Source: Chitinibacter bivalviorum (GTDB taxonomy: Bacteria; Pseudomonadota; Gammaproteobacteria; Burkholderiales; Chitinibacteraceae). From it: a DNA stretch of 64,000 nucleotides. Below the pieces are notes generated by a model that saw only the letters and a list, made by a program, of their open reading frames with translations, did not search any database and was not told the origin of the DNA. Of the stretch, positions 2,703 to 19,713 are shown one piece after another (the first letter of the stretch is position 1; the number at the start of each line of letters is the position of its first letter). The translations under genes and the position numbers were made by a program. Location: positions 992,001-1,056,000 of the forward strand of contig NZ_CP058627.1 in the NCBI RefSeq assembly GCF_013403565.1. The letters are read 5' to 3'.

Positions 2703-2707
2703 AATAA

Positions 2708-4968: not shown

Positions 4969-5056
4969 GGCAAATCCGAGGTAAGACGTGTTTTAAATGA
5001 AAAAATTGTGCCCCTTGGAAAGGGTGACGTTTTGCGGGGCACGGACAATATTAAAC

Positions 5057-5073
5057 GATAATGATTATCATTT
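5057..5073. promoter_or_regulatory. Fur box 1 in the divergent siderophore promoter
   Basis: GATAATGATTATCATTT matches the classic Fur operator (GATAATGATTATCATTATC) at nearly every position. It lies about 90 nt upstream of the TonB receptor start and should repress both divergent transcripts when iron is plentiful. Confidence 0.88.
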
Positions 5074-5116
5074 GTGTGTAATAATAACGTAGAATTCTTT
5101 CGATTTACACCGGTAT

Positions 5117-5133
5117 GATAATAATTATCATTT
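5117..5133. promoter_or_regulatory. Fur box 2 in the divergent siderophore promoter
   Basis: GATAATAATTATCATTT is a second near-consensus Fur operator, 60 nt from the first and only about 20 nt upstream of the FhuF-like start codon. It probably governs the rightward transcript. Confidence 0.88.
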
Positions 5134-5151
5134 AATGAGGGCCGATAAACG

Positions 5152-5958: not shown

Positions 5959-6139
5959 GCACGGGGTATCAAAGGGGTATGTGAAATTAGTTCGCTTATA
6001 TCGATCGATAGCCCTCAGTTTTACCTATTCAACCCTAAAGCCCGATGTGCTTGTGCTGGGTGTACATACCAAATCACGAAATACCCTGCTTGGTATATTT
6101 ATCTAATCATTATTAAATAAGATCTCTATTCATATACCT

Positions 6140-6919: not shown

Positions 6920-8862
6920 AATATCTAACTTTGCCCGTCTTGCTAGCGTTCGCCTTGCTGCTGGCTGTTTTTCATTTGCAGATGGCGACACCGCTAGAGC
7001 TAGCGGCGCAATGGCGTGCAATAGGTAGTGATGATCTGGGAATGGATTCGATCGTATTTAAGTACGCCCATTTGCCACGCACTGTATTGGCTATTTTTCT
7101 GGGTGTGGCGATGGCGCTATCGGGCAGTCTATTGCAGCAGCTAACGCAAAACCCGCTAGCTTCGCCGATGACGCTGGGCGCCTCTGCAGGCGCGTGGTGC
7201 GCCATTGTGTTGGGTGGTTTGCTGTTGCCAGCGACATGGCATTTGCCAATCGAATGGTTGGCGATGGGCGGCAGTTTATTCGCGCTGCTGCTCGTGGTTT
7301 CCCTGGCAGGCTGGCGACAACTACACGGACTGGGCGCTTTATTAGCGGGTACTGCGGTTAACCTGCTGTTAGGGAGCGTGGCAGGGATCGCGGTGATGAT
7401 GAATGATCAATACAGTCGCTCGTTACTAGTGTGGGGCGCTGGCGATATGGCGCAGAACGACTGGTATTGGGTTGGCTGGGTACTGCCGCGGCTGTTACCT
7501 GCGCTATTGGTGCTACCTATGCTGTGCCGCCCGCTGCAATTGATCCAGCTGGGTAGTGATGCTGCCACTGCCGCAGGGCTGAATGTTGCACGTTTCGCCA
7601 TACTTACCAGCCTGCTGGCACTGTGGCTGAATGGACTGGCAATTAGCGCGGTAGGGATGATCGGATTTATTAGCTTGCTGGCGCCGGCGCTGGCGCGCTT
7701 GCTTGGCGCGGCCAAACCTGCGCAATGCTTGATGTATTCAGCCGTACTTGGCGTTATCACATTATTGGCAGCCGATACCCTGGCGATGTATGTATCGAGC
7801 CTGCTTCCTGAGCTTTTACCCAGTAGTGCGGCGGCAGGCTTGCTCGGTGCGCCCGTACTGGTCTGGTTATGCTTGAGACAGAAAATGCCTGATCGGGTTG
7901 GTGGGGCGCTGGCGGCGATGAAAGTGCGGCGGCGAGTACCATTGCCTGTGTATTTATTCCTAGGGTTGGCACTGATGGTGCTCTGCGCAGTGCTTGGGCG
8001 TGACGTGCAGGGCGCTTGGACGCTGGAGTGGCCCGATGCCGGCTTGTGGGCGCTACGTTGGCCACGACTACTGGCTGCAAGTGCAGCTGGAGTGGGGCTG
8101 GCAATGGCGGGTTTAGTTTTGCAGCGCTTACTCAACAATCCCTTGGCAAGCCCCGATCTACTGGGGATTTCGTCAGGCGCTAGTCTGGGCATGTTGCTAG
8201 GAATGGCATTGGGAGTGTCGCAGCCTTGGTTAATGACCAGCGCTGGCGCGGCTTTGGTGCTAATGGTTCTGTGTTGGTTGGCGCCGCGCCAATCGCCCGC
8301 ACGCTTGGTATTGCTGGGGGTAGGGCTGTCATCGCTCTTGGAGGCGGTACTGCAATTCGTGCTCGCGCAGGGAAGTAATGATAGTTTCAAGCTGCTCAAC
8401 TGGCTGGCGGGCTCTACTTATCATACCAATGCGGGTGATGCGCTGGCATTGGCCGCTTGGGTGGCACTACTGGGGTTGTTGATTCTGCCCGCTAGCCGAG
8501 TGTTGGCATTGTTGGGGTTGGGTGAAAGCCATGCTCGCGCAACAGGGCTAAATGTCCGCCGTGCCCGCGCACTATTGTTTTTGCTGGCTGGGTTATTGAG
8601 CCTGGCAATTAGCAGTCAATTTGGGCCGCTAGCCTTTATTGGACTGGTGTTGCCACAATTGGCAATTCAGCTTGGCGCACGCAAAGTGAGTACGCAATTA
8701 CTACTCGCCAGCCTGTTGGGCGCGACGCTGTTGGCGCTGGCTGATTTTGCCAGTCGTACATTATTTTTTCCTATGCAATTGCCAGTCGGTGCGCTGGGTT
8801 CGCTCTCGTGCGGCATGTTATTGGTACTGGCCTTGTTGACTACTCGCAGAGGTGCGCCATGA
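6916..8862 (+). CDS. FhuB-type fused iron-siderophore permease
   Basis: 648 aa inner-membrane permease made of two FecCD-family halves joined head to tail, as in FhuB. Each half carries the FecCD signature with N-P-L-A-S-P: QNPLASPMTLGASAGAW in the first and NNPLASPDLLGISSGAS in the second. Each half also has a GxxxxFIGLxxP-like segment (GMIGFISLLAPALAR; FGPLAFIGLVLPQLA). The length matches FhuB (about 660 aa) and not single FecC/FecD subunits (about 330 aa). The gene overlaps the ATPase gene at its start and the binding-protein gene at its stop, forming a three-gene translationally coupled operon. Confidence 0.93.
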   Translation: MKYLTLPVLLAFALLLAVFHLQMATPLELAAQWRAIGSDDLGMDSIVFKYAHLPRTVLAIFLGVAMALSGSLLQQLTQNPLASPMTLGASAGAWCAIVLGGLLLPATWHLPIEWLAMGGSLFALLLVVSLAGWRQLHGLGALLAGTAVNLLLGSVAGIAVMMNDQYSRSLLVWGAGDMAQNDWYWVGWVLPRLLPALLVLPMLCRPLQLIQLGSDAATAAGLNVARFAILTSLLALWLNGLAISAVGMIGFISLLAPALARLLGAAKPAQCLMYSAVLGVITLLAADTLAMYVSSLLPELLPSSAAAGLLGAPVLVWLCLRQKMPDRVGGALAAMKVRRRVPLPVYLFLGLALMVLCAVLGRDVQGAWTLEWPDAGLWALRWPRLLAASAAGVGLAMAGLVLQRLLNNPLASPDLLGISSGASLGMLLGMALGVSQPWLMTSAGAALVLMVLCWLAPRQSPARLVLLGVGLSSLLEAVLQFVLAQGSNDSFKLLNWLAGSTYHTNAGDALALAAWVALLGLLILPASRVLALLGLGESHARATGLNVRRARALLFLLAGLLSLAISSQFGPLAFIGLVLPQLAIQLGARKVSTQLLLASLLGATLLALADFASRTLFFPMQLPVGALGSLSCGMLLVLALLTTRRGAP

Positions 8863-9713
8863 TCAATCGTTTCATTTTAGTCGTGGCATGCCTGCTAGCT
8901 TGTACAGCGCAAGCGGGGCCCAAAGTAATAGCATTAAGCTGGGAGAGTACCGAATACCTGCTCAACATTGGTGTCACCCCGCAAGCCATTGCTGATCGGG
9001 TCGATTACGATAAATGGGTGGTACAACCTGCGCTACCAGCGCACGTACTCGATGTGGGCAGTCGTTTTGAGCCCAACCTTGAGCGCATCTATGCACTCAA
9101 ACCCGATCTGATCCTGATTGGCCCTGCTTTAAGTGGCATGCAATCGAAGTTACTCAAAATTGCGCCAACCATCGTGCTCGATGCCTTTCGCACAGATCAC
9201 GATAATGCGCTTGTGGCCGAGCAACTGCAGCGGCAGTTGGCAATTCGGCTAAATCGGCTGCCGGCACACGAAGCTTTTTTAGAGGCGAGCCGACGTAAAC
9301 AAGCTGAATTGCGTCAATCCATTGCACAACGTTTTGGTAGTCAGCCGCCGGCCGTATGTGTGGTTCGATTTGCTTCACCAACGACGTATTGGGCATATGG
9401 TGAAAATTCAATGCCCGAAGCTGCACTTAACCAGCTGGGACTACGCAATGCTTGCCCGCAAGCGCGTTCGATGTGGGGTTTGCAACTGCACAAAGTGCCT
9501 GATCTCTCCGTAATAGGCGACGGAGTACTGTTAAAAATAATGCCGTTTGAACGCGAGGCTGAGTTAATGCGCAGCCCAATCTGGCAGGCCTTGCCAGTTG
9601 TGAGACGCGACCGAGTTTACACTTTACCGCCGGTGTGGACGCATGGCGGGCTGCATTCCATTGATCTACTGGCGCAATCAATCGCCGATACACTCACTTC
9701 AAGTCGTAACTAA
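8859..9713 (+). CDS. Periplasmic siderophore-binding protein, FhuD/FecB type
   Basis: 284 aa. The start is taken at the ATGA overlap with the permease stop (8859) because the next residues form a clean signal peptide (MINRFILVVACLLACTAQA) followed directly by the mature protein. The fold markers of class III binding proteins are visible: ALSWESTEYLLNIGVTPQAIAD near the N-terminus, LERIYALKPDLILIG, and the long connecting helix. The mature protein should deliver the siderophore to the fused permease. It is the last gene before the dif-integrated element, whose left end is about 120 nt downstream. Confidence 0.9.
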   Translation: MINRFILVVACLLACTAQAGPKVIALSWESTEYLLNIGVTPQAIADRVDYDKWVVQPALPAHVLDVGSRFEPNLERIYALKPDLILIGPALSGMQSKLLKIAPTIVLDAFRTDHDNALVAEQLQRQLAIRLNRLPAHEAFLEASRRKQAELRQSIAQRFGSQPPAVCVVRFASPTTYWAYGENSMPEAALNQLGLRNACPQARSMWGLQLHKVPDLSVIGDGVLLKIMPFEREAELMRSPIWQALPVVRRDRVYTLPPVWTHGGLHSIDLLAQSIADTLTSSRN

Positions 9714-9829
9714 GCCTTGCTGAGCGCAAGGGAATGGGGCAGCTAGGAGTTGGTGGGGTACTGGCATTTTTTAGGGTGGATCGAACAAAAGGAACTATTA
9801 CCCATGACTAATGCAAATGCGACTATTTA

Positions 9830-9857
9830 ACTTTACATAATATACAGAGAGTGAACA
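9830..9857 (+). other. attL: hybrid dif-like site at the left end of the prophage
   Basis: ACTTTACATAA-TATACA-GAGAGTGAACA. The first 11 bp match the XerD arm of dif (reverse of TTATGTTAAAT) and the 6 bp centre TATACA is that of E. coli dif read on the other strand. The last arm has no resemblance to a XerC arm. CTTTACATAATATACA (9831-9846) recurs at 19687-19702. This is what XerC/XerD-dependent integration of an element with a degenerate XerC arm would leave behind. The XerD arm here would be of chromosomal origin and the degenerate arm of phage origin. Confidence 0.82.
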
Positions 9858-9885
9858 AAAAACCCGCCATTCCTGACGGGTTTTT
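9857..9885 (-). terminator. Terminator of the prophage repressor gene
   Basis: Leftward Rho-independent terminator: stem AACCCG/CGGGTT followed, on the minus strand, by a T-run. It sits between the repressor stop and attL, so the leftward transcript ends inside the element. Confidence 0.7.
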
Positions 9886-9897
9886 ATGGGGTATTTT

Positions 9898-10227
9898 CTA
9901 GGCCGCCAGTAGGGGCTTTTTTGCGATTTCTTCCCTTATTTCCTTTTCATAATCAAAGCCTTTGCAGGCCGTATAGGCCGCCAGCCAACCCGCCATTTCT
10001 TCCCGTGTCGGCGCATCTGAATACATTATCGCCGAGTAAATTACTGGCAAGGGTACATTAAGAAATGATGAAATTTTCCGCGCTATATCTGGCCCGACCG
10101 ATCGTCGTTTATTGACGATGTTTGAAATTGAGGTTCTATCGACCCCAATACTGATCGCAACCTGTGTTGCAGAGTCCGTGTTAAGCCTTGATTTCATTGC
10201 TAAAAGTAGCGTCTCAAAATCCAGCAT
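9898..10227 (-). CDS. Prophage Cro/CI-type HTH repressor
   Basis: 109 aa. The N-terminal half is an XRE-like helix-turn-helix (TQVAISIGVDRTSISNIVNKRR, then GPDIARKISSFLNVP, residues 20-55). The second half is a short acidic helical tail resembling small phage regulators of the DUF3693 type. It is transcribed leftward, divergent from all replication and structural genes, the usual place for a lysogeny regulator. The 171 nt gap to the first rightward gene should hold its operators. Function as repressor is inference from domain and position. Confidence 0.78.
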   Translation of the reverse strand: MLDFETLLLAMKSRLNTDSATQVAISIGVDRTSISNIVNKRRSVGPDIARKISSFLNVPLPVIYSAIMYSDAPTREEMAGWLAAYTACKGFDYEKEIREEIAKKPLLAA

Positions 10228-10398
10228 TTCCTAATATCCCAATAGTTTTATTTTGTAATTGCTTACTTATTAGCACTTACTGGCCCGCTTATAAATCCGT
10301 TTCACTCTGAAACCCTGATTTGAGTATTTACATAGAATCCGACTTAACCAACGCAGACCAAACGCGGCGGGAAAAGTTCGATTCATTCAGGGGGTTAT
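10228..10398. promoter_or_regulatory. Divergent repressor / early-gene control region
   Basis: 171 nt AT-rich gap between the leftward repressor and the rightward early genes. It must hold both promoters. TTGCTTACTTATTAGCACTTACT contains a repeated CTTACT half-site (near 10262-10281) that may be an operator. The strong Shine-Dalgarno GGGGG precedes the 10399 start. Site assignments are tentative. Confidence 0.45.
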
Positions 10399-10674
10399 AT
10401 GTCCAGTTACTTCGGCTTCAGTAATGTGAATAACGTCACAGTTTCGGACTGGACGCGCAAACAATACGGTAACGGCCCTGAATCAATGGTGAACTGGGAA
10501 AAAACCATTGAAGTGGAATACAGCGAATTTGATTCTTGCCAGGTAGGCAGCACAGTTGTTATCACCGCTAGCCACCAAAAAGCGAAAGAACTCGAAGCGG
10601 CATACCAGGCCGCCAAGCAGGCCGAGGCCGAGCAAGTCGCATCACTCAAGCAATCAGTAAGCGTTAGCAAATGA
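10399..10674 (+). CDS. Small prophage early protein, unknown function
   Basis: 91 aa, first rightward gene of the element. An aromatic/polar N-terminal half (SSYFGFSNVNNVTVSDWTRK) is followed by an Ala/Gln/Lys-rich helix predicted to be a coiled coil (AKELEAAYQAAKQAEAEQVASLKQ). There is no membrane segment or cysteine. It overlaps the replication protein gene by 4 nt (ATGA), so the two are probably translated together. A role in replication or its control is suggested only by position. I do not recognise the family. Confidence 0.72.
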   Translation: MSSYFGFSNVNNVTVSDWTRKQYGNGPESMVNWEKTIEVEYSEFDSCQVGSTVVITASHQKAKELEAAYQAAKQAEAEQVASLKQSVSVSK

Positions 10675-11462
10675 CGCAAGCCAAGCAGCATCGCGCCTTT
10701 ATTCCTGCCTGTCATGTGCAATATTGCCTTGACGCGGCAGTAAAGCGCATTTGGCCAACTTCGGAAGGTGCGCGAACAATCAGCGCCCAAACGATGGGCC
10801 GCCTCACTTCTACGCTGCTTTGCCTCATTGGCATGAACAACAAAGGGCGCGTTCGCGCCGATCAAGAATTCATTGCGGCCCGCCTGGGCAAGTCTGATCG
10901 CTCATTGCGTACCGATCTGCGCGACCTTGAGGCCCTGGGCCTAATCGAAACGCTCAAGCATTACGACAAGCATTTCAAAAAGGTGCGCAACACCTATGTA
11001 ATCGCGCCTGTGCTCTTGCTTTGGAAGAAGGGCCAAGAGCTGGCCCGCCAGGCTTCGGCCGCGCTAATCGAAACCGTGGGGCAGACAAGCACTGTAGCCC
11101 GTCGCATGAAGAAACTGCATGAAAAATACCAAGAGCTGAACACTAAAAACCTGCGCCAGGGCAAGCAATCGCCCCAGGAGCGTATCGGCGCTTACCTGTC
11201 ACGCGTTGAGTTTTCCACAGACCGGAAGAATCCTGCCGTGTTGACAGATTCTTCTTCGAAGAAAGAATCAAACCAAATAAGTGCGCAGCGAGCTGCGGAT
11301 ATTTGGGGTCTTGTATCCGCGTTCGGATACAAGCAAGCGGCCCGAATGGCCCGCTTGTCCGTGGCCCAGGTGATAGAGCTAGCCCGATCTATCGGGAAGG
11401 GGCCGCCAGGCTTTACGGCTAGCAGGGTTTCTCCGAATGACGGGGCGGGGAACTCAGGATAA
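10671..11462 (+). CDS. Winged-helix replication initiation protein (putative)
   Basis: 263 aa basic protein. Residues about 40-100 form a winged helix (SAQTMGRLTSTLLCLIG, RADQEFIAARLGKSDRSLRTDLRDLEALGLI), the arrangement of phage and plasmid replication initiators and helicase loaders. A second HTH-like stretch lies near the C-terminus (QAARMARLSVAQVIELARSIG). No HUH or YxxxY rolling-circle motif is visible, unlike the P12 initiator known from PM2, so the replication mode may differ. Position directly after the control region supports a replication role. The evidence is fold-level resemblance only. Confidence 0.65.
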   Translation: MTQAKQHRAFIPACHVQYCLDAAVKRIWPTSEGARTISAQTMGRLTSTLLCLIGMNNKGRVRADQEFIAARLGKSDRSLRTDLRDLEALGLIETLKHYDKHFKKVRNTYVIAPVLLLWKKGQELARQASAALIETVGQTSTVARRMKKLHEKYQELNTKNLRQGKQSPQERIGAYLSRVEFSTDRKNPAVLTDSSSKKESNQISAQRAADIWGLVSAFGYKQAARMARLSVAQVIELARSIGKGPPGFTASRVSPNDGAGNSG

Positions 11463-11575
11463 AAAACCGTTCGGCAGTGGTAGCAGTGGTTTTTTGAGGT
11501 GAGGCGGTCTTTTTGGGCCGCATCAGCAGCACAAACAGCGCGGGGGCGCATCTTTTCAACAGGGTAGGGGGCTTT

Positions 11576-11851
11576 ATGCTGAAACAACTAAACGAAGCAC
11601 TGAACGCGCTTAAAAATTCGGGCGTTCTGGAAGCAAAAGCGAAGGCGGCCGCCTTTGCTGATGTAGCAGTCGAAACAATCGACCACTTGCACAAGGCTTT
11701 AGACACGGCCCAGCAATTGGCCGTTGATTCGGTCAATGAATTGGTAATCGTCGCGGCCCGCCTGGAGCGCCTGGAGCGCCTAAGCGGTTTACACGTTGAG
11801 CAGTACGAGGAAGCGCCAGCGGTGGCAAACCATGAAATTCAAGGACAGTGA
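11576..11851 (+). CDS. Small helical prophage protein
   Basis: 91 aa, start at 11576 chosen because GGGGGCTTT precedes it and because the upstream in-frame extension is Arg/Asn-rich without coding character. The protein is almost entirely amphipathic helix (LNEALNALKNSGVLEAKAKAAAF ... LIVAARLERLERLSGLH), giving a likely coiled-coil oligomer. No known family recognised. It overlaps the next small gene by 20 nt. Confidence 0.6.
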   Translation: MLKQLNEALNALKNSGVLEAKAKAAAFADVAVETIDHLHKALDTAQQLAVDSVNELVIVAARLERLERLSGLHVEQYEEAPAVANHEIQGQ

Positions 11852-11957
11852 TTATCTGATTACGGCCGCCATTTTGGCGGTGTGGCCGCGCCCAGAATGG
11901 GAGCCGATCAAATTAATGGGGCCTAGCCCCGTCAAAATCAAAGTTTTGCAGGGATAA
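11832..11957 (+). CDS. 41-residue prophage protein
   Basis: Begins MKFKDSDYLITAAILAVWP and ends VKIKVLQG; ATG at 11832 overlaps the end of the previous gene. One moderately hydrophobic stretch (YLITAAILAVW). Coding is suggested by tight packing and the shared direction, but it is short and unrecognised. Confidence 0.45.
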   Translation: MKFKDSDYLITAAILAVWPRPEWEPIKLMGPSPVKIKVLQG

Positions 11958-11967
11958 GGGGGGGCGT

Positions 11968-12255
11968 ATGGCCGGGGGGCAAAAAGTTACGCGGGAATAC
12001 CTGGGCGAGATGGATTGCCCGCTTTGTCACCGGCCCGCGCCGGTGCGCAAGCAGGCCAACGGCTTTGCAATCCTGAAATGCGGGTTTTGTGGCTGTACGC
12101 TGCAAACCCACGAACACAAATCAAGCTCAATTTTGGCGAGTCGCATCAAGGGCCAGCCGCTACCAGTGGCGGCCAATGAGCCAAAACCAGAAATCAAACC
12201 AAGTGCGCAAGCAGCGCCACAACCAAAGCCAGCGCAAAGCGGCACTTTTTGGTAA
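11968..12255 (+). CDS. Zinc-ribbon prophage protein
   Basis: 95 aa. Two CxxC pairs (CPLCHRPAPVRKQANGFAILKCGFCG shortened: CPLC ... CGFC, residues 17-40) form a zinc ribbon. The remainder is a Pro/Ala/Gln-rich disordered tail. Zinc ribbons of this size in small phages often bind DNA or act as late regulators, but no function can be assigned. A Shine-Dalgarno-like GGGGGG is present upstream. Confidence 0.65.
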   Translation: MAGGQKVTREYLGEMDCPLCHRPAPVRKQANGFAILKCGFCGCTLQTHEHKSSSILASRIKGQPLPVAANEPKPEIKPSAQAAPQPKPAQSGTFW

Positions 12256-12264
12256 GGGGAAAGC

Positions 12265-12750
12265 ATGTACAACGAAGATCAAACACACCAACAAACCGAA
12301 GCCGCGCCAGCGCCAAGTGAGGCCGATCACGAATTAGCCCGCCTGGAACAAATCGCGGCAGGCCATGACCAGGAAACTAACGCTGAATTATTGGCGGCAG
12401 CGGTGGGCGCTGATACGGTTTTGACTTTTCCGCACGATGCAGCGGCCGAGTGCGAAACGGTTTTAGTCATGGCCCGCACATTATTGGCCCCATTGTATCC
12501 CTCGCTGGAGGTCGTTTACTCCGATTCCACTATTCAAAAACTGAGCCAGGCGGCCGCGCCGGTGATGATTAAATACAACTTAACCGGCGGCGGTTTGTTG
12601 TCTAAATTCGGCCCTGAATTGACGCTCGCGGCCGTGGCCGTGCCGGTGGCCCTGGAAACAATCAAAGCCGTTCGCCACGATCACGCGGCCCGCATTGCGG
12701 CCAACGATGAACAAGCAGCAGCGGCGGCCTTAGCCAATGGCAGCAACTAG
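12265..12750 (+). CDS. Prophage membrane-associated protein, unknown
   Basis: 161 aa. An acidic Ala/Glu-rich N-terminus (residues 1-50) is followed by a hydrophobic region at about residues 120-140 (LTLAAVAVPVALETI). It overlaps the packaging ATPase gene by 14 nt, so the two are coupled. In PM2-like phages genes next to the ATPase often encode virion membrane proteins; that role here is inference only. Confidence 0.55.
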   Translation: MYNEDQTHQQTEAAPAPSEADHELARLEQIAAGHDQETNAELLAAAVGADTVLTFPHDAAAECETVLVMARTLLAPLYPSLEVVYSDSTIQKLSQAAAPVMIKYNLTGGGLLSKFGPELTLAAVAVPVALETIKAVRHDHAARIAANDEQAAAAALANGSN

Positions 12751-13429
12751 TAAAAATAGGGGGCCAGTGGGGGGCCGTGGGCCGTGGCCTGACCTGATCG
12801 AATCACGGGCCAATGAAGCCATAATTGAAGTGATTATTGGGGCCACTGGCGCGGGCAAAACCACTCATTTAATGCGCGAACTCAAAGCAGGCAAGCCCAA
12901 ACGCTTGCTTGTTTGGGATGATAAAGGCGAGTTTTGCGATGATGGTTTTGTCAAGCCCGTCAAGACGATCACCGAGTTTGCAAAGCAGGTGAGGGCGGCG
13001 GGGAAGGGGCCGATGAAACTTGGCTTGATTCCCTACGGCAAGCCGAGCGATATGGTGAAACTGTTTGATCTGTTTTGCCAGATTGCGTACCAGGCGGGCC
13101 AGTGCGTGGTAATCACCGAGGAAATGAGCAACGTGTGCGACGGTGGCAAATGTAACGCTGCGGGCTGGCGCACACTCATCACCAAGGGCCGGACGCGGGG
13201 ATTTCGCATTTATGCGCTGACTCAGCGGCCCGCGCTCATTGATAAAACGGTTTTGACTCAGGCCACGACGATTCGTTGCGGTGTTTTGGGTTCGGATAAC
13301 GACGCGAAACCCGTTGCCAGTGTGATGCGCGGCGTACCGCATTCTGATCTGCTCGCATTGCAGCCCTTGGAGTACATCGAATACATCAAGAAAGGGCCGG
13401 TGATTAATCGCGGGAAACTGACTTTTTAG
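12737..13429 (+). CDS. Genome-packaging ATPase (FtsK/HerA superfamily)
   Basis: 230 aa P-loop ATPase. Walker A is GATGAGKTT (near residue 38). A Walker B-like strand with acidic end, CVVITEEMSN, lies near residue 120. A sensor-type Gln follows in IYALTQRPALID, the TQR motif typical of A32-like packaging ATPases of double-jelly-roll viruses and of Zot-like proteins. It lies immediately upstream of the capsid gene cluster, the conserved ATPase-then-capsid order. Zot of filamentous phages is an alternative relative, but Zot has a C-terminal transmembrane segment and extracytoplasmic domain, which are absent here, and the neighbour is a P2-like capsid protein. Confidence 0.83.
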   Translation: MAATSKNRGPVGGRGPWPDLIESRANEAIIEVIIGATGAGKTTHLMRELKAGKPKRLLVWDDKGEFCDDGFVKPVKTITEFAKQVRAAGKGPMKLGLIPYGKPSDMVKLFDLFCQIAYQAGQCVVITEEMSNVCDGGKCNAAGWRTLITKGRTRGFRIYALTQRPALIDKTVLTQATTIRCGVLGSDNDAKPVASVMRGVPHSDLLALQPLEYIEYIKKGPVINRGKLTF

Positions 13430-13438
13430 GGGGTAATT

Positions 13439-13576
13439 ATGTTTGTTCAGAAATTAGCAGTTTGGAGCTTAGGCTTTTTTATGGGTGTATTGGCCGCAAC
13501 ATCAGGGAGCCTGATTGTTGAGAGCCAATTATTTAAGCATGGCTTTTACCCAATTTATTGCGATTCACAACAATAA
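13439..13576 (+). CDS. 45-residue single-pass membrane protein
   Basis: Begins MFVQKLAVWSLGFFMGVLAA and ends YPIYCDSQQ. One transmembrane helix near the N-terminus. It follows the ATPase stop by 9 nt with a GGGGG Shine-Dalgarno sequence. Probably a virion membrane protein, like the many small membrane proteins of PM2. Confidence 0.6.
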   Translation: MFVQKLAVWSLGFFMGVLAATSGSLIVESQLFKHGFYPIYCDSQQ

Positions 13577-13621
13577 ATCGGCATTTATGCAACAAATTTT
13601 CAAATAATTTCAGAAAGTTGA

Positions 13622-13640
13622 TGGGGGCCACTGGCCCCCA
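13622..13640. other. GGGGGCC hairpin after the early module
   Basis: Perfect inverted repeat TGGGGGCCACTGGCCCCCA, 45 nt after the 13439 gene. It lacks an immediate T-run but sits just upstream of a canonical terminator, so it may stabilise the early mRNA 3' end. Confidence 0.5.
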
Positions 13641-13666
13641 TTTTGCCCTCAGTTAGCCCGCCTACG

Positions 13667-13696
13667 GCCCCTTTTGATAAGGGGCTTTTTTATTTT
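13667..13696 (+). terminator. Rho-independent terminator between early and capsid modules
   Basis: Stem GCCCC/GGGGC with 9 nt loop followed by a T-rich run (TTTTTTATTTTTATT). It would separate replication/packaging transcription from the structural operon. Confidence 0.85.
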
Positions 13697-13698
13697 TA

Positions 13699-13764
13699 TT
13701 GTTTGTGTAATTAACGCAAACAAAACGCTTTGTTTGTGTTTTTCCAACTCATTTACACAAACAA
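13699..13764. repeat. Cluster of TTGTTTGTGT repeats upstream of the capsid operon
   Basis: TTGTTTGTGT-like units occur on both strands within 66 nt: TTGTTTGTGT (13699), CGCAAACAA (13715), TTTGTTTGTGT (about 13730) and ACACAAACAA (13755). They lie in the only long gap of the rightward gene array, between a terminator and the structural genes. The cluster could be the late promoter operator or the iterons of a replication origin. Confidence 0.6.
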
Positions 13765-13773
13765 GGTAATGAA

Positions 13774-13878
13774 ATGCCAACTACTAAACAGGCTTTGACA
13801 ATTGTAGTCGTTTCTCTGATTGCAACAGCCATTGCGGCCCGCGTTCCAGCCGTTAAGAAAATCGTTTACGGCGCTTAA
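13774..13878 (+). CDS. 34-residue membrane protein
   Basis: Starts MPTTKQALTIVVVSLIATAI and ends KKIVYGA: a single transmembrane helix with a basic tail. AAGGTAATG precedes the ATG. It opens the structural module, 41 nt before the capsid gene. Probably a virion membrane protein. Confidence 0.55.
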   Translation: MPTTKQALTIVVVSLIATAIAARVPAVKKIVYGA

Positions 13879-13919
13879 CAGCGTCTGAATTGCGTTTCTA
13901 ATTATTCAAGGCTGAGAAA

Positions 13920-14732
13920 ATGACCCAACTTAAAAAAATGCCGCCAGTGCAAAACGTGATTGCCAATAATATGGCAACGCTGACTTTGCCATTGTCGGAA
14001 ACCTTCGAGCGTTTGGTATGTGTCCTGGGCGGCACGTTCACCAAAGCAATGATTTTGAATATTCGCGTTAAATTGAACGGCAAAGTTATTCACGATTGCA
14101 CCGGCGCTGACCTGGATGTAATGAACAACTACAACGGCCTGGCTTCCAATGCCTCAATTTTGTCGATCGACTTTTCCGAGCTGTTCGCTCGCGATGCGGT
14201 TTGGCAATCAGTCGGCGCAATCGGCACGGCTTCGGATAACGTGCAGTCTCTGATGGTTGAATTCGACATCGGCGCGGCGACTAACCCGACGCTGACCGTA
14301 TTTGCCAACGTATCAGGCCCTAAAATTCTTGCGGGCATTAACAAGCTGTCAAAAGCCACAATGAATATTGCGGCGGGCAACGTAAAAACGCCTTTGCCGG
14401 TGGCGTTTGGTGCATCTGGCGGCGCGTTGATTAAGCGCATTTACATCAAGTCGGCAAACATGACCGCGCTTGAAGTGAAGCGAAACGGCGTTGTGATCCA
14501 CGACTCAATCAAGGCCGTGAACGACTTCTACCAGCAAGAAAACAAAAAAGTGCCACAAACAGGCTGGTACATTTTCGACGCGGTAGTTGAAAACAACGGT
14601 AATGACATGATCGACGTTACCAACAACGACCCAAACAACAAAACATTCAGCTTTGAAGTGAATGTCACGTTAAGCGCGTCTGAGTTCATCACTTATTACG
14701 TTGAAACCATCGACGTTTTAGGCAACTGCTAA
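13920..14732 (+). CDS. Major capsid protein, PM2 P2-like double jelly-roll
   Basis: 270 aa, against 269 aa for PM2 P2. The pattern I recall for P2 recurs in order: NV-x-ANN near the start, an LPL..TFE strand, GG..TK..I.NIRVKLNGK (about residues 40-55), a DL..MN loop, GTASDNVQSLMVEFDIGAA (about 100-118). The second half, IKRIYIKSANMTALEVKRNGVVI, repeats the same strand pattern as the first, as expected for two jelly rolls in one chain. The protein is beta-rich and has no signal peptide or membrane segment, fitting a coat protein. This is comparison from memory, not an alignment; an AlphaFold model showing two stacked jelly rolls would settle it. It follows the ATPase module and heads the structural operon. 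Confidence 0.8.
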   Translation: MTQLKKMPPVQNVIANNMATLTLPLSETFERLVCVLGGTFTKAMILNIRVKLNGKVIHDCTGADLDVMNNYNGLASNASILSIDFSELFARDAVWQSVGAIGTASDNVQSLMVEFDIGAATNPTLTVFANVSGPKILAGINKLSKATMNIAAGNVKTPLPVAFGASGGALIKRIYIKSANMTALEVKRNGVVIHDSIKAVNDFYQQENKKVPQTGWYIFDAVVENNGNDMIDVTNNDPNNKTFSFEVNVTLSASEFITYYVETIDVLGNC

Positions 14733-14742
14733 GGGGCCGACG

Positions 14743-14988
14743 ATGGACGACGTTTTAGACCTGAGCTTTATTAAAAACATCATCTCTGATGCGTCCAAGG
14801 GTTACATCTACGAGAAATACGGCGTTGTTAGCGATAGCGGCAAGACGTATTTTCGCGGCCAAAACGGGGGCACGTTCCAGGCGGGTACAACGCCGGAACA
14901 AGCCCAGGCTCAAGCCCAAGCGACCAATTTCACGCCCTGGATTATCGGCGGCGTGGCTATTTTGGCCCTTGTTTTGGTGATGGACTAA
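14743..14988 (+). CDS. Prophage tail-anchored membrane protein 1
   Basis: 81 aa. A polar N-terminal part with Tyr/Gly-rich segments, a Gln/Ala-rich linker (AQAQAQAT) and a C-terminal transmembrane helix (WIIGGVAILALVLVM). Starts 10 nt after the capsid gene and its stop abuts the next start. First of three consecutive proteins with a membrane helix at the very C-terminus, likely components of the internal membrane under the capsid. Confidence 0.68.
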   Translation: MDDVLDLSFIKNIISDASKGYIYEKYGVVSDSGKTYFRGQNGGTFQAGTTPEQAQAQAQATNFTPWIIGGVAILALVLVMD

Positions 14989-15348
14989 ATGGCGATTATT
15001 CCTGGCATTGATGACAGCCCAAACCCAACCGGCTTTGCAAGCTCGCTTTTGTCTGGCTTAGGCCAGCCATTAGCGGCGGGCTTGCAGGCCCTGGCGGGCG
15101 GGCCAACTTCTGCCGAGCAAAAATTCAGCGGCTCAAACAATCCGATCTTCGGGGCGGATTGGGCCGTTAATTTTAGCGGCACTCAAAAAGTAAACACCGG
15201 CCCCAAGGGCAGCACCGGCGCAAGCCAACCAGACGGCAACGGCAATATTACGGGCAGCCAGGGTTTCACCGGATTTAATAGCCCGCTCATTATCGGCGTG
15301 GTGGTTTTGGGTTTTGTGGCTGTGATTTGGCTGAAAAAAAAGCGATAA
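14989..15348 (+). CDS. Prophage tail-anchored membrane protein 2
   Basis: 119 aa. Gly/Ser/Asn-rich low-complexity ectodomain (GPKGSTGASQPDGNGNITGS) and a C-terminal helix LIIGVVVLGFVAVIWL followed by KKKR. The ATG directly abuts the stop of the previous gene. The basic tail predicts the C-terminus on the cytoplasmic or virion-interior side. No family recognised. Confidence 0.66.
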   Translation: MAIIPGIDDSPNPTGFASSLLSGLGQPLAAGLQALAGGPTSAEQKFSGSNNPIFGADWAVNFSGTQKVNTGPKGSTGASQPDGNGNITGSQGFTGFNSPLIIGVVVLGFVAVIWLKKKR

Positions 15349-15352
15349 ACAT

Positions 15353-15907
15353 ATGTTTAATAGCAGCAAGAATTTAACAACTCAAAACATAACGAATAAC
15401 GACAATCGACAGTCGATTCAAGATGGGATGGGTATTTCAGGCGACAATTCCAGTATTTCCACAACGTCTAATGTGTTTACTGATTTATCAAATCGCAGCA
15501 CAAACAATATTGATAATTCTAATCGCAGCGTTACCAATATAACGAACACAACGACCGACCAGGGCGCGTTAAAGCTGGCGGCTGATCAAGTTTTTGCATC
15601 ATTGACTAGCCAGAATTCGACGGTTTCAGCAATGGCCCGCTTGGTTGAGCAAAGCCAAAAAAATGCGGGTGATACCAACATCAAAGTCATTAATTCGGCT
15701 TTTGATGCTTTGGGCACGAAAGACCACATTACGGCCGATCTGGTAAACAAATACGCCGATTTGCAAAATACAGCGACCAATAACATTGCAACCGCTTGGA
15801 AAAATGCAAAGGAATTCGAGGCGGGCAAATCGCTGGGCGATATTAAGTGGGTGATTGGCGGCTTAATTGGCGTCTTTGCATTAATGGCATTAAAGGGCGG
15901 TAAATAA
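15353..15907 (+). CDS. Prophage tail-anchored protein with Asn/Thr/Ser-rich stalk
   Basis: 184 aa. The first 75 residues are an extremely Asn/Thr/Ser-rich repeat-like region (units such as NNDNRQS, RSTNNIDNSNRSVTNITNTT). A helical middle follows, then a C-terminal transmembrane helix (VIGGLIGVFALMALKGGK). The N-terminal composition resembles trimeric beta-helix stalks, so this may be a trimeric membrane-anchored fibre or vertex component. It overlaps the next gene by 1 nt. Confidence 0.66.
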   Translation: MFNSSKNLTTQNITNNDNRQSIQDGMGISGDNSSISTTSNVFTDLSNRSTNNIDNSNRSVTNITNTTTDQGALKLAADQVFASLTSQNSTVSAMARLVEQSQKNAGDTNIKVINSAFDALGTKDHITADLVNKYADLQNTATNNIATAWKNAKEFEAGKSLGDIKWVIGGLIGVFALMALKGGK

Positions 15908-16482
15908 TGCAAACCATCACGAATATTTTTACCGATGCAAATCCGTGGTTTTTGGGCTGCTTCGGCTATTCATTTCAGCTTTTGGATACCAGCGCACCCG
16001 TCGATATTACTTTGACGCGGGGCAATAGCCCGGTCGCTAAAGCGCGCGGCGTTCAGTCTGGTTTCAAATTGCGCCAGCAAAAGCCCTTTGACGGCGTAAT
16101 TATCGAAAACGCGGGCATTGGCTCCAGTGTCACGATCTTTGTCGGCTCCGAAGTCGATGCGGAATACACCCGCATTGCTGGCCTGGTCGATACGCGCATT
16201 AAGAGCGCCAAAACCCTACTCAATAAACCCATGCTCAACGTAGCGCAAAACACAGAAACCTTGCTGTGTGCGGCCAACGATGGGCGGGCACGTCTGATTG
16301 TCTGGAATAACGGCACCGCTGATGTGTATATCGGCGCACCTGGTCTGGCGATTGCCGACGCCGCAATCAAGCTGGCCGCTGGCGATCAATGGATTGAAGA
16401 AACCGCCGCGGCGTGCGCCTGGATTGTGATTCACAACAACGCCGCCGCCCAGGCCATCAAAGTGCAAGAGGCACTGTACTAA
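15907..16482 (+). CDS. Beta-rich prophage structural protein (putative vertex/penton)
   Basis: 191 aa, no membrane segment. Predicted beta-rich throughout: FQLLDTSAPVDITLTRG, VTIFVGSEVDAEYTRIAG, RARLIVWNNGTADVYIG. The C-terminal half (YIGAPGLAIADAAIKLAAGDQWIEETA) looks like a single jelly-roll or fibre-base fold of the kind seen in phage head-fibre and vertex proteins. It lies between the membrane proteins and the collar-domain protein, where a penton or spike base would fit. Not recognised by family; the role is inference. Confidence 0.55.
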   Translation: MQTITNIFTDANPWFLGCFGYSFQLLDTSAPVDITLTRGNSPVAKARGVQSGFKLRQQKPFDGVIIENAGIGSSVTIFVGSEVDAEYTRIAGLVDTRIKSAKTLLNKPMLNVAQNTETLLCAANDGRARLIVWNNGTADVYIGAPGLAIADAAIKLAAGDQWIEETAAACAWIVIHNNAAAQAIKVQEALY

Positions 16483-17021
16483 TGGCCCGCGCAACACGGC
16501 GACGCAATACGCCAGTGATTGGCTCAATCAACACCTACACAGGAAAGCGAAAAGTGGCTGGAGAAATTCTACATTTTGCAGGCTCAACGCCACCAGTTGG
16601 CACGCTGGCGTGTAACGGCCAGCTTGTCAGCCGTACCACCTATTCAAATCTATTTGCCGCCATTGGCGTGACGTATGGCGCTGGCGACGGCTCAACGACC
16701 TTTGCCGTTCCTGATCTGCGTGGGGAATTCATCCGCAGCTTGGACGGTGGGCGCGGCATTGACGCAGGGCGAGCACTGGGATCTGCGCAAGCTGCGACGG
16801 AGATTTCAAACTATGTTCACTCGGACGGTGGAACACCTGGAGCCCTTGCTGCTGAATCTGTGCCAATTACAAACTCTGACGGCGTTGGGGCAAACATTGC
16901 AACGCCAAACGGAAATTATTATTTCAGCGCAGCAAATTCAACTAATGGCGGTTCTGCTTTTTCAACCGCGTCAAAAATTCGCCCCCGCAACATCGCCATG
17001 CTGGCCTGCATCTATTACTAA
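16482..17021 (+). CDS. Tail-collar-domain protein (putative receptor-binding spike)
   Basis: 179 aa, start placed at 16482 in the TAATG overlap with the preceding stop; a longer upstream frame lies inside the previous gene. After a basic N-terminus comes a phage collar domain (Pfam Collar type): AGSTPPVGTLACNGQ, TYSNLFAAIGVTYGAGDGSTTFAVPDLRGEFIR is visible as consecutive motifs, then GRALGSAQA and the end signature RPRNIAMLACIYY. In tailed phages this domain is part of tail fibres. Here no tail genes exist, so it probably forms the receptor-binding tip at a capsid vertex. This placement is inferred. Confidence 0.8.
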   Translation: MARATRRRNTPVIGSINTYTGKRKVAGEILHFAGSTPPVGTLACNGQLVSRTTYSNLFAAIGVTYGAGDGSTTFAVPDLRGEFIRSLDGGRGIDAGRALGSAQAATEISNYVHSDGGTPGALAAESVPITNSDGVGANIATPNGNYYFSAANSTNGGSAFSTASKIRPRNIAMLACIYY

Positions 17022-17040
17022 TTAAAGGACTTGTCACGAA

Positions 17041-17253
17041 ATGCCACAAGTAAAAGCTAAAGTATGTCATGCCTACAACCCAGCAACCGGCGCTTATTTA
17101 CAGCCAACGGTGGCTTATTTAGATCCACTCACGCCAGGGCAATACAACTTGCCCGCGGGTGCGATTTGGGCCGACCCAAACGAGCTGGCCGCTTGGGATG
17201 CCACTAATTGGCCCTATGTGAACGGCAGCGCCTGGGAATTGAAGGCCCTCTAA
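17041..17253 (+). CDS. Small accessory protein after the collar protein
   Basis: 70 aa: MPQVKAKVCHAYNPATGAYL..., Pro/Trp-rich, ending NGSAWELKAL. The composition (aromatic, YLDPLTPGQYNLPAG) resembles fibre-associated or fibre-assembly proteins. Its stop overlaps the next start (TAATG). The function is only suggested by its position between the spike-like protein and the lytic enzyme. Confidence 0.6.
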   Translation: MPQVKAKVCHAYNPATGAYLQPTVAYLDPLTPGQYNLPAGAIWADPNELAAWDATNWPYVNGSAWELKAL

Positions 17254-17906
17254 TGGCGGTGAACGGAAAACGCCTTTTTGTGCTGGCCCTGGCGGGAGTC
17301 GGGGCGTATTGGCTGATCGCATCACGCACTATGCAAAAGGGCGAAGCGGCAACAGAAAACGGGTTTTTTGTGCCTGATGTGTTTGGGTTTTTGAAAGCGT
17401 CATTGAATGATGCGGGTAATTATTTACAGGATGCATTCGACTTGGCTAATTCAGACTTTAGAACAAGTGTCACCAGTGGGCGCGGCAATCAATTTGTCGG
17501 CGTAATCGAAAAAATCGGTGAGGCAAAAGGCTTGCCGCCTTTCTTGCTTTCGCGGATTGCCTATCAGGAATCGCGGTTTAGACCTGATGCAACAAACCCA
17601 AGCGGGGCGCGTGGCATGTTTCAGATTAACAAAATCACGCAGCTAGAAATGTCTCGTCAAATGGCTAAACAGTTTGACCCGTTCAACTGGCAGCAAGCAG
17701 CCGAAGGCGCTGCGGTTTACCTGGCTTATTTGTATGCGAAATTTGGAACTTGGCTTCTTGCTGTGGCTGCCTATAACGCTGGCCCAGGCACTTTGCAAAA
17801 GAATATGGCGGCAAATGGCGGCAAATGGAATCCAGCCACAATGCCGCAAGCCGAACAGCGAGTTTATGCGCTGCAAGTGATGGCTGATATTCCAGCGGAT
17901 TATTAA
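17253..17906 (+). CDS. Membrane-anchored lytic transglycosylase (SLT domain)
   Basis: 217 aa, start at 17253 (TAATG coupling). N-terminal hydrophobic helix (LFVLALAGVGAYWLIAS) then an SLT/lysozyme-like domain from about residue 80. The catalytic Glu is in IAYQESRFRPDA, with conserved NPSGARGMFQI and AVAAYNAGPGTL motifs. It cleaves peptidoglycan glycan strands. In PM2-like phages a virion transglycosylase opens the wall at entry and may assist lysis; either role is possible here. A leftward gene for a small secreted Cys-rich protein overlaps its 3' end by 4 nt. Confidence 0.88.
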   Translation: MAVNGKRLFVLALAGVGAYWLIASRTMQKGEAATENGFFVPDVFGFLKASLNDAGNYLQDAFDLANSDFRTSVTSGRGNQFVGVIEKIGEAKGLPPFLLSRIAYQESRFRPDATNPSGARGMFQINKITQLEMSRQMAKQFDPFNWQQAAEGAAVYLAYLYAKFGTWLLAVAAYNAGPGTLQKNMAANGGKWNPATMPQAEQRVYALQVMADIPADY

Positions 17907-18232
17907 TGTGTGGCGGCGTAAATCTCGCAGAGTTGCAGCTCAATTCCGACCATAGAGCCAGACATCAAATCACGCTCATTTTTGGCCGCTTGTTTTTTGC
18001 ATAGCTTTGCGGATTTTTGGTAGTTGGATTTTTTGCTTTGAGGCATAGCCGCCACTGCAATATCAAGTTGTTTTGAAAGACATTCGTTCTTCTCAAACAT
18101 GATTTGCATTGCGCGGCAGTCTTTTACACCTTGGCTAAATTCATTCGCATATTTATCACATGCGTAGCAATCAGTGTAATCAGCATGGGCAAAGCCAGCG
18201 ACCAGGGCAAGAAGTAGGGCGGCGGTTTTCAT
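17903..18232 (-). CDS. Secreted Cys-rich protein, possibly LprI-like inhibitor
   Basis: 109 aa, the only leftward gene in the middle of the element. A clear signal peptide (MKTAALLLALVAGFAHA) precedes DYTDCYACDKYANEF. The mature part has six cysteines, and NECLSKQLD followed by a C ... GS ... C pattern weakly recalls the LprI/DUF1311 domain of periplasmic lysozyme inhibitors. It sits tail-to-tail with the transglycosylase gene. If it is an inhibitor it could protect a lysogen from superinfecting or premature wall-degrading enzyme. The resemblance is weak and the function hypothetical. Opposite orientation suggests expression in the lysogen. Confidence 0.6.
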   Translation of the reverse strand: MKTAALLLALVAGFAHADYTDCYACDKYANEFSQGVKDCRAMQIMFEKNECLSKQLDIAVAAMPQSKKSNYQKSAKLCKKQAAKNERDLMSGSMVGIELQLCEIYAATH

Positions 18233-18280
18233 GTATGAGAACTCCTTTTTTTAATCATATACAGGGCGCGACTTTATATC

Positions 18281-18712
18281 ATGGCGACTGTGAAATTGAA
18301 CACACCAACGGGCCTTTATGTTGTCGGCGGCCTGATTGCCTTGCTTTGGCTTAAGGCCACATTGAACGGCCGAACGATGGGCGAAGAAGCAGCCAAAACC
18401 GCATGGGATGCAACCGGCGGCGCGGTAACAACCGGCGCGCAAAAGTACGCCAAAGACACATACAAGGCGGCAACCGACAAGGCCGACGAAGAATTCATAA
18501 GCACGGTGCGCGGCCTCACTGGCGTATCACCGGCCAATTTTGCCGAGCAGCAAATCATTATCAGCTATCGGCCAACGGCGAGCGCCTGGATGGATGGCTT
18601 GCCGATCTTGGGCCTAGTACCAGCGGCCCAGGCTTATTTAGCAGCACAAGCAGTAAAAGAATACCGATCAACCAATATCGGAAAATCACTTAAACAATGG
18701 GGTGTTTACTAG
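18281..18712 (+). CDS. Prophage membrane protein with two hydrophobic segments
   Basis: 143 aa. An N-terminal transmembrane helix (GLYVVGGLIALLWLKATL), a helical Ala/Lys-rich middle and a second hydrophobic stretch (MDGLPILGLVPAAQAYLAA). Likely a virion membrane or lysis component. Stop and next GTG start overlap (TAGTG). Confidence 0.6.
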   Translation: MATVKLNTPTGLYVVGGLIALLWLKATLNGRTMGEEAAKTAWDATGGAVTTGAQKYAKDTYKAATDKADEEFISTVRGLTGVSPANFAEQQIIISYRPTASAWMDGLPILGLVPAAQAYLAAQAVKEYRSTNIGKSLKQWGVY

Positions 18713-18840
18713 TGAAAACTATTACATACATAGGTCTTTTAATTGCTGGGGTGGTTTTTCTTGAGTACCTCAGAGAGCAAGGCGCATTTTTAACAACTGA
18801 ACAAAACAATCAAATCGTTCTAAGTAGATTACGGGGGTAA
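18712..18840 (+). CDS. 42-residue single-pass membrane protein
   Basis: GTG start overlapping the previous stop; begins VKTITYIGLLIAGVVFLEYL and ends IVLSRLRG. One membrane helix then a polar tail. Followed within 4 nt by the next gene. Confidence 0.5.
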   Translation: MKTITYIGLLIAGVVFLEYLREQGAFLTTEQNNQIVLSRLRG

Positions 18841-18843
18841 TAA

Positions 18844-19041
18844 ATGGCATTCATCGACAAACTAAAATCATTGGGCCGCTTTGTGGTTCAACGTGCGCAA
18901 GAGCCTAGCACCTGGGCAGCAGTCGCCAGCATTGGCGCATTGGCGCACGCTAACCCTGAAGTCATGAGCAATGTAGGTAATGCTGCGCCGTTGGTCGCGG
19001 CAATCCTGGGCGTATTTCTTCCGGAATCGCAAAAGCAATGA
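18844..19041 (+). CDS. Small hydrophobic prophage protein (holin candidate)
   Basis: 65 aa: amphipathic N-terminus (FIDKLKSLGRFVVQRAQEP) and two hydrophobic stretches (TWAAVASIGALAHA; APLVAAILGVFLPES). Size and arrangement fit a small holin or a virion membrane protein; neither is proven. Its stop overlaps the next start (ATGA). Confidence 0.52.
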   Translation: MAFIDKLKSLGRFVVQRAQEPSTWAAVASIGALAHANPEVMSNVGNAAPLVAAILGVFLPESQKQ

Positions 19042-19253
19042 GCGTAAAAACCACGGTAAAGAATGCGCTTGTGGCGGTGGCCGTGGGCGTGGTGGCGATG
19101 ATGGTTTACGACAAGATCAAAGCCATGAAAGCCCAGGCCGACGCAGACGAAGCGAAAAAGACGATCAATAACACGAGCCGATTCCCTGGTATTCCGTTAC
19201 CAACCGAAGGCCCGATCAATTTATCGACCGACGATACGGTTTTGCGCATTTAG
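19038..19253 (+). CDS. Small single-pass membrane protein
   Basis: 71 aa: transmembrane helix ALVAVAVGVVAMMVY near the N-terminus and a charged then polar tail (KAMKAQADADEAKKT ... LSTDDTVLRI). Last rightward gene of the element, coupled to the upstream holin-like gene. Its stop overlaps the end of the leftward 19250 gene by 4 nt. Confidence 0.55.
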   Translation: MSVKTTVKNALVAVAVGVVAMMVYDKIKAMKAQADADEAKKTINNTSRFPGIPLPTEGPINLSTDDTVLRI

Positions 19254-19567
19254 CCTGGGAAACCATACGCGGCCCGAAACATCGGTAAAAACTGAATATT
19301 CTTTCTCGCTGGAGGCGGCCATTGGCCGCTTTCTTTTTGCCGTTTGATCTTGCCGACCACATCCCAGGCAACAACATAATATTCACGTCGATAAGGCAAA
19401 GCCCCGAATTGATCGACGATAAACAACAGCCAATAATCAATTTCAGCCTGTGAAACGCCTGTGCCCGCATTAAATTGTCGCACCAGGTAGGCGCGTTTTT
19501 GATAGCCCGCGCTCAGTAGTGTCTTAAAAAGTGTGTTTTTTCTGTTTTTATGTGTTGTTTTAGTCAT
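19250..19567 (-). CDS. Leftward prophage-end protein, unknown
   Basis: 105 aa basic protein (MTKTTHKNRKNTLFKTLLSAG...), with aromatic clusters QAEIDYWLLFIVDQFG and REYYVVAWDVVGK. No membrane segment or known motif. It is convergent with the structural operon and its promoter would be in the 119 nt before attR. Genes at this place in small prophages often act in host interaction or regulation, but nothing in the sequence shows its job. Confidence 0.6.
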   Translation of the reverse strand: MTKTTHKNRKNTLFKTLLSAGYQKRAYLVRQFNAGTGVSQAEIDYWLLFIVDQFGALPYRREYYVVAWDVVGKIKRQKESGQWPPPARKNIQFLPMFRAAYGFPG

Positions 19568-19685
19568 ATTTTACAAGTTGATACATATGCGGCAATGTAA
19601 GTTACTGCAACGTAGTAAAACTACGGGAAAAGCCTTATTTTACAGCAAAAAGAAAGGGGCTTTGCTTACAAATTGCGTCACTTCT

Positions 19686-19713
19686 TCTTTACATAATATA
19701 CATTATGCGATGT
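19686..19713 (+). other. dif: attR: complete dif site at the right end of the prophage
   Basis: TCTTTACATAA-TATACA-TTATGCGATGT. Read on the minus strand this is ACATCGCATAA-TGTATA-TTATGTAAAGA. Against E. coli dif, the XerC arm GGTGCGCATAA matches over the inner CGCATAA, the centre TGTATA is identical and the XerD arm TTATGTTAAAT matches over TTATGT and AA. The site is therefore a complete dif and should still serve XerCD chromosome-dimer resolution, marking the replication terminus region. In the uninterrupted chromosome the site would be the attL XerD arm joined to this XerC arm. Confidence 0.85.

Follow-up and report, generated by a model that had tools for sequence, protein, structure and literature searches.

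The window analysed here is a stretch of 64,000 nucleotides from the Chitinibacter bivalviorum genome (contig NZ_CP058627.1, positions 992,001 to 1,056,000). At window positions 9831 to 19702 we find a PM2-like (Vinavirales) prophage seated at the single dif site of its host. The prophage lies between two exact copies of CTTTACATAATATACA, at 9831 and 19687, and the repeat-to-repeat span of 9,856 bp agrees with the 9.86 kb block described in an earlier reading of the same DNA (the original prediction). The window holds no further match to the repeat at up to two mismatches, and the genome no exact copy beyond these two; two matches arose in 0 of 100 shuffles. We accepted 23 open reading frames (ORFs) between the repeats as genes. 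The Pfam scan took in 20 of them (the omitted three encode 34, 45, and 47 aa), and the PHROGs scan of the window covered 10 ORFs. The host was placed in the same family as Chitinilyticum aquatile of the Neisseriales (G010; G and L codes are the genomes and the loci or contigs of our survey), in line with the Neisseriales-like host that had been guessed.

The identity of the element rests on its major capsid protein (270 aa; 13920-14732, + strand), which has Pfam matches to P2_N (1.8e-32) and P2_C (4.4e-41) and a PDB profile match to the PM2 capsid protein P2 (2vvf/2w0c, 1.2e-18). The original prediction had proposed a structural comparison of this protein with P2 and a profile search with the presumed packaging ATPase, and both bear it out. 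The capsid model (mean predicted local distance difference test score, pLDDT, 93) is a double jelly roll of the P2 fold, with 2vvf_A as the best Foldseek match (template modelling score 0.89, root-mean-square deviation 1.9 Å), and the ATPase (PM2 P9-like; 12737-13429, +) matches phrog_2666 at 2.9e-25. The phage records that match are those of Vibrio and Pseudoalteromonas tailless phages. The capsid without two jelly rolls, or the homologues from filamentous phages or plasmids, that would have spoken for another kind of element did not appear, and Zot-like or filamentous coat genes were found neither in the 20 ORFs scanned with Pfam nor in the 10 scanned with PHROGs. The P2-type capsid, with a packaging ATPase near its gene in PM2-like order, places the element in Vinavirales. 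It would be a small tailless virus of the membrane type, with a presumably circular double-stranded DNA genome and a putative internal membrane. Among the 20 scanned ORFs there is no PM2-type P12 replication protein (a Corticovirus trait) and no GPA match, a 263-aa protein resembling O-type initiators being present instead, and no match to a type B DNA polymerase (an Autolykiviridae trait, listed in the record of phage 1.249.A).

The two ends of the prophage are dif-type attachment (att) sites. At attL (9830-9857, +) the XerD arm and the TATACA centre are intact and GAGAGTG stands where the XerC arm would be, so that a degenerate, phage-derived XerC arm lies on the prophage side. At attR (19686-19713, +) the dif is complete, with a phage-derived XerD arm and a chromosomal XerC arm. 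From this anatomy we deduce an attP with a good XerD arm on the side of the gene we call g22 and a degenerate XerC arm on the side of a helix-turn-helix (HTH) gene. The location at chromosomal dif, already proposed in the original prediction, is confirmed. The pattern ACATAATATACATTATG is present in 43 of 43 family genomes at up to two mismatches and occurs exactly once in 42 at up to one mismatch, the exception (G030) having three in a stretch of 27 kb. With the pattern reversed as a control, the same 43 genomes yielded 6 matches. Five genomes of the same genus have an alignable right flank (about 82-86% identity by local BLAST) and lack the prophage capsid gene. In all five the alignment starts at 19687 in the genome search (in two of them in two pieces). 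Local BLAST supports this start in four, with one long alignment in L070, L071, and L016 and, in G005, a short block that ends at a gap; the short block of G006 falls under its threshold. Copies of GGGNAGGG, a KOPS-like motif (FtsK-orienting polar sequence) after that of E. coli, switch polarity at attR (6/0 to the left, a count that includes the prophage, versus 0/4 to the right; p 0.005). The Bordetella dif (PMC2731167) agrees with attR over the inner arms and the centre.

The other genes of the element are arranged between these sites. Adjoining the degenerate arm is an HTH repressor-like gene (9898-10227, -; HTH_3, 5.8e-7), followed by the gene for the 263-aa winged-HTH protein, weakly like O-type replication initiators (10671-11462, +; phrog_345, 7.3e-4); the three PM2-like relatives checked (G010, G030, and G156) have a GPA-type Rep (PF05840) where the window has this protein. 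Then come a small protein, weakly zinc-ribbon-like and conserved in relatives (11968-12255, +), and a protein likewise kept in relatives whose gene lies upstream of the ATPase gene and overlaps it (12265-12750, +). Between ATPase and capsid, a 34-aa hydrophobic peptide (13774-13878, +; hydropathy 2.05) holds the position of PM2 P7. Downstream of the capsid gene are two small membrane proteins in the position of PM2 P3/P4/P8, with matches in some relatives (14743-14988 and 14989-15348, +), two virion-region proteins conserved in relatives (15353-15907 and 15907-16482, +), a tail-collar-domain protein (16482-17021, +; PF07484, 5e-24), an SLT transglycosylase that is probably a lytic or entry enzyme (17253-17906, +; PF01464, 2.8e-23), and four small proteins with hydrophobic segments, some of them conserved (18281-18712, 18697-18840, 18844-19041, and 19038-19253, +). 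Last comes g22 itself (19250-19567, -), which encodes 105 aa, lies 120 bp from dif, and is transcribed away from it. The lytic enzyme had thus been called correctly. The predicted dozen small membrane proteins is too high a count: 8 of the 23 ORFs exceed a hydropathy threshold of 1.6, and another two fall at 1.5-1.6. The claim that tail genes are absent needs qualifying for the collar-domain protein, which is probably part of a spike. The predicted lack of an integrase stands. No recombinase was recognised in the 20 ORFs scanned, and none of the 13 PF00589 matches in the genome lies between the repeats. The element thus shares with integrative mobile elements exploiting Xer (IMEXs) its location at dif, its dif-type sites at both ends, and the lack of a recognised recombinase of its own.

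Related capsid genes were found in 7 of 43 genomes of the family (9 matches), 9 of 399 of the order (6 new), 3 of 370 of the class (2 new), and at 19 loci of named genomes (17 new). Carriers among the latter include Cupriavidus, Burkholderia, Paraburkholderia, Noviherbaspirillum, Lacisediminimonas, Herbaspirillum, Rhodocyclus, and Hydrogenophaga, as well as the gammaproteobacterium Spongiibacter. Counting ends as dif-type when they share one arm and the centre, 19 of the 32 capsid-bearing genomes have such sites at both ends (the window, G010, G030, G042, G068, G140, G145, G156, G215, G737, L087, L088, L089, L093, L096, L098, L100, L101, and L103). Ten have one site or a remnant (G003, split over two contigs, G040, G041, G073, G741, L086, L091, L094, which is weak, L095, and L102), and three have none that we found (L097 and L099, on short or cut contigs, and L104). 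A consensus dif is present at one end in 15 of the 19 two-ended elements, and L087-L089 have a XerC arm of the printed Burkholderia form or near it. A fixed dif consensus was rejected as a detector, having missed the Paraburkholderia, Burkholderia, and L100 sites that an unbiased search for direct repeats found. In G156, G068, and G215 both sites share a centre hexamer other than that of the window (TATATA, TAAACA, and TACAAA, respectively), an equality not imposed in the search; one partner half-site search did impose the same centre, and its matching centres carry no weight. G010 has a second copy on contig C14; no dif-type site was found for it, and it adjoins an ORF read as an IS30-type transposase.

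A common layout recurs at these sites. In G042 an insertion of about 22 kb carrying an integrase interrupts the capsid gene; G042 was for this reason omitted, leaving 18 uninterrupted two-ended elements. All 18 (three with qualifications) show the same succession of small gene, kept arm, centre, degenerate arm, and HTH gene. The kept arm is that of XerD in 12 (the window, G010, G030, G145, G215, G737, L087-L089, L096, L098, and L100) and that of XerC in six (G068, G140, G156, L093, L101, and L103), as also in G042. The small gene was classified by running two profiles on the ORFs of the loci, one built from g22 and one, iterated, from the DUF3653-type proteins of PM2, Cr39582, NO16, and PG21; we call matches to the latter XafT-like, on the assumption that the Xer activator XafT contains DUF3653. 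In a table of 17 elements, a XafT-like gene lies just inside the kept-arm end in nine, g22 in seven, and both in none, and an HTH gene lies just inside the other end in 16. The two misses, L101 (XafT-like) and L089 (HTH), are ORFs whose start was predicted beyond the site. G737, found later, has a XafT-like and an HTH gene in place, so that the 18 elements comprise 11 with a XafT-like gene and seven with g22, never together on the phage side. No tyrosine integrase was detected in the 17 elements by a profile built from 16 tyrosine recombinases, nor is there one in G737 (0 of 18); the ORFs that this profile did match are two in L104, two in L103 (neither within the element), and one or more in L062 (the insertion of G042). 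We considered a rule that g22 goes with XerD-type sites (7/7 versus 4/10, p 0.03 for the 17 elements) and do not claim it, since p rises to 0.17 when G042 and G003 are added. A second XafT-like or g22 gene lies outside the full dif at 4941-5285 of L079, 15484-15828 of L093, 4314-4583 of L077, and 4862-5326 of L078, which suggests a neighbouring IMEX or its remnant.

Taken as a whole, the locus is best explained, and we hold this with high confidence, as a temperate PM2-like phage that integrates at dif through the XerC and XerD recombinases of its host. The circular phage genome would insert at dif by XerC together with XerD. Its attP would lie between g22 and the HTH gene and would join a good XerD arm to a degenerate XerC arm through the central hexamer of the host; g22 would activate the exchange and the HTH protein would act as repressor of an inducible prophage. 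After the crossover, a complete dif at the g22 end would allow the host to go on resolving chromosome dimers, and the site at the HTH end would be crippled, so that routine FtsK-driven XerCD action would leave the prophage unexcised. The same outcome, with one dif intact and the opposite site crippled, is described for insertions of the gonococcal genomic island (GGI) and of LME-1. Such a route suggests how a 10-kb virus can lysogenise its host without an integrase.

Several points weigh on the other side. The window element is known in its integrated form. In none of the five same-genus genomes does its left flank adjoin dif (it matches elsewhere in four and was not found in one), and accordingly no clean two-sided empty site was seen. 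L100 has no recognisable XerC arm at either end, the circular viral contigs L128 and L129 gave no dif-type site in our scan, and L104 (Zhongshania) combines two tyrosine recombinases with no dif site found. Outside the window, the absence of integrases depends on PF00589 and on the ad hoc profile built from 16 tyrosine recombinases, and serine and DDE enzymes were checked in the window ORFs only. Lastly, g22 lacks a characterised relative in Pfam, the PDB, NCBIfam, or phage records.

This last point feeds the strongest alternative, to which we give close to an even chance: the prophage is the same, FtsK-activated or spontaneous XerCD exchange suffices, and g22 is an excision factor, an immunity gene, or an antirepressor placed where it is for regulation. 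The g22 protein, modelled as five helices (pLDDT 82), has no recognisable fold or family; it has no PDB match at E 0.001, none in NCBIfam or phage records, and no Pfam match up to E 10, DUF3653 included, and it is absent among the matches of the XafT-like profile. The link of the 11 XafT-like genes to XafT is also weak in most cases. With the uniterated profile four match at E 0.001-0.006 (G156, G068, L103, and G737), two at E 3.5 and 6.5, and five not at all. None of the 11 reaches the Pfam cut-off for DUF3653, which is seen, below cut-off, in G145 alone (0.0015); HTH domains are seen in six of the others (weak in L103), and L096, L098, and L100 have no match up to E 0.1. The iterated profile finally drifted to other HTH proteins. 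Against this alternative, g22 and the XafT-like genes agree in position and orientation and were not found together on the phage side (7 and 11 of 18), suggesting one function filled in two ways, and it is on this position and non-co-occurrence that g22 becomes a candidate Xer activator. Among 4,604 ORFs, the non-seed matches of the uniterated profile at E <0.01 are 12 of 12 rows from bacterial loci beside dif-type sites, plus the PG21 HTH gene, and the one-ended L086 shows DUF3653 above cut-off (35 bits). All nine related viral contigs have an ORF matching the iterated profile (weakest 4.6e-7), and in L133 a dif-type half-site lies between this ORF and an HTH gene.

The g22 profile itself gave 15 matches at 12 distinct survey loci, with a gap between E 1.8e-15 and 3. 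At eleven of these loci a full or Burkholderia-type dif lies no more than about 160 bp from g22, and the twelfth is in the decayed element of G041, although the loci had been preselected for a capsid or dif and this is not a genome-wide rate. Over the order, the profile matched in 3 of 399 genomes (G000, G010, and, weakly, G199), the short form in G215 not being listed. A broader proposal is that PM2-like phages as a group, PM2 included, exploit Xer with an activator of their own encoded beside attP, and that one branch swapped XafT/DUF3653 for the unrelated helical g22, a second activator class found mostly on XerD-arm attP sites. The uneven link of the 11 genes to XafT/DUF3653 lowers the weight of this proposal, which we offer tentatively, and raises that of the regulatory alternative. 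It would suggest a role for the DUF3653-type genes of PM2 and NO16 and make g22 a possible second handle on XerC/XerD switching outside cell division.

It is unlikely that the element is a defective remnant and a mere passenger at the terminus. Decayed copies do occur at dif (G040, G041, and G042), and the window lacks the GPA-type Rep of the relatives checked; against this, the virion genes recognised in it have open reading frames, it retains both att sites, and it has a replication-like gene where Rep would be. Moreover, NO16 is an inducible temperate phage (PMC9966536), and mitomycin C induced Cr39582 (PMC5968719). That an unrecognised recombinase of the element happens to use dif is very improbable: Vibrio tailless prophages at dif are reported to carry integrase genes regularly (PMC11630473), yet 0 of the 18 uninterrupted elements have a tyrosine integrase and their sites follow the arm-centre-arm anatomy of XerCD.

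Among known systems, the Pseudoalteromonas phage PM2 (Corticoviridae) resembles the window element in capsid fold, ATPase-P7-P2 order, and genome size. Its own XerD-type dif-like site (747-774 of L082) lies between Orf a and the HTH gene Orf c; Orf a is annotated as DUF3653 and scores 21.6 bits here, against a cut-off of 22.4. In contrast to PM2, the window capsid is about 28% identical to P2, no PM2-type replication protein was found, and g22 stands in the place of Orf a; PM2 is regarded as lytic, whereas we read the window element as temperate. A presumptive dif in PM2 had been noted before (PMC9966536). The dif-like sites of isolates are weak when taken alone: that of PM2 beats 20 of 20 shuffles by one step, and those of Cr39582, NO16, and PG21 do not. 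Vibrio phage NO16 ('Asemoviridae') is likewise temperate with a dif-like site, and XerCD use was proposed for it (PMC9966536), but it keeps the XerC arm, at a site at 3280 with the gene of a DUF3653 protein beside it. This protein, gp7 (L076 3558-3989), is named S-adenosylhomocysteine hydrolase and matches DUF3653 at 57 bits (cut-off 22.4), as does the PG21 gene of the same name at 32 bits; gp6, which flanks the site opposite gp7, is called DNA-binding by record annotation only. The gp7 gene served as a marker in PMC9966536, and its relatives stand at the extreme end of several V. cyclitrophicus records, which we take to be putative prophages of the Vibrio study.

Jorvik-like phages (Vinavirales) share with the window element the lack of a predicted integrase, a dif-like attP, and an HTH gene near it (PMC10589892), but have an alphaproteobacterial host and integrate in the RuBisCO operon. 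PhiCjT23/FLiP-like phages share the double jelly roll and dif sites at the prophage ends (PMC9719478); unlike the window element they are single-stranded DNA phages of Flavobacterium, with prophages of about 6-8 kb. With dif/XerCD use already proposed for NO16, Jorvik, and PhiCjT23 in these papers, the claim of novelty in the original prediction was too strong. TLCphi, GGI, and other IMEXs also have a degenerate dif-like attP and use host XerCD, and the activator XafT is a TLCphi product (PMC9765430). In TLCphi and GGI it is the XerD arm that is lost and the XerC arm that remains (PMC4246890, PMC5357621), the reverse of the window element, and TLCphi lacks virion genes. PM2-like prophages, some with integrases, were described by Krupovic and Bamford (2007; PMC1950889), who cite XerC/D for CTXphi. 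No Xer term turned up in two Vinavirales surveys (PMC9502842, PMC5894146), and a Vibrio survey called dif/XerCD use by tailless prophages inconclusive (PMC11630473). Our results bear on that question, which elements without a recognised integrase in at least 10 betaproteobacterial genera make directly testable. The literature searched, mostly outside subscription papers, yielded no listing of dif-located PM2-like prophages in Betaproteobacteria and no paper that links DUF3653 with Xer. New here are their recurrent residence at dif in that group, an attP with the XerD arm kept, and g22 as a candidate Xer activator.

Other elements at dif were seen in the survey. The G028 locus L073 contains, at 877-9787, a dif element that combines a g22-family gene with a GPA-type Rep and a lysozyme; it has no PM2-type capsid match and is perhaps another mobile element using g22. 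In G041 (L064-L066), 7.9 kb elements with a XafT-like gene stand in tandem at dif and adjoin the decayed PM2-like element; two of the units are identical save for one base in 7,892, and the third agrees over the 7,700 bases compared. The dif regions of G030 (L060-L061) and G028 (L072-L073) contain several dif-type half-sites on both strands, and in G030 two sites of opposite orientation share their outer flank, which suggests stacked or inverted elements.

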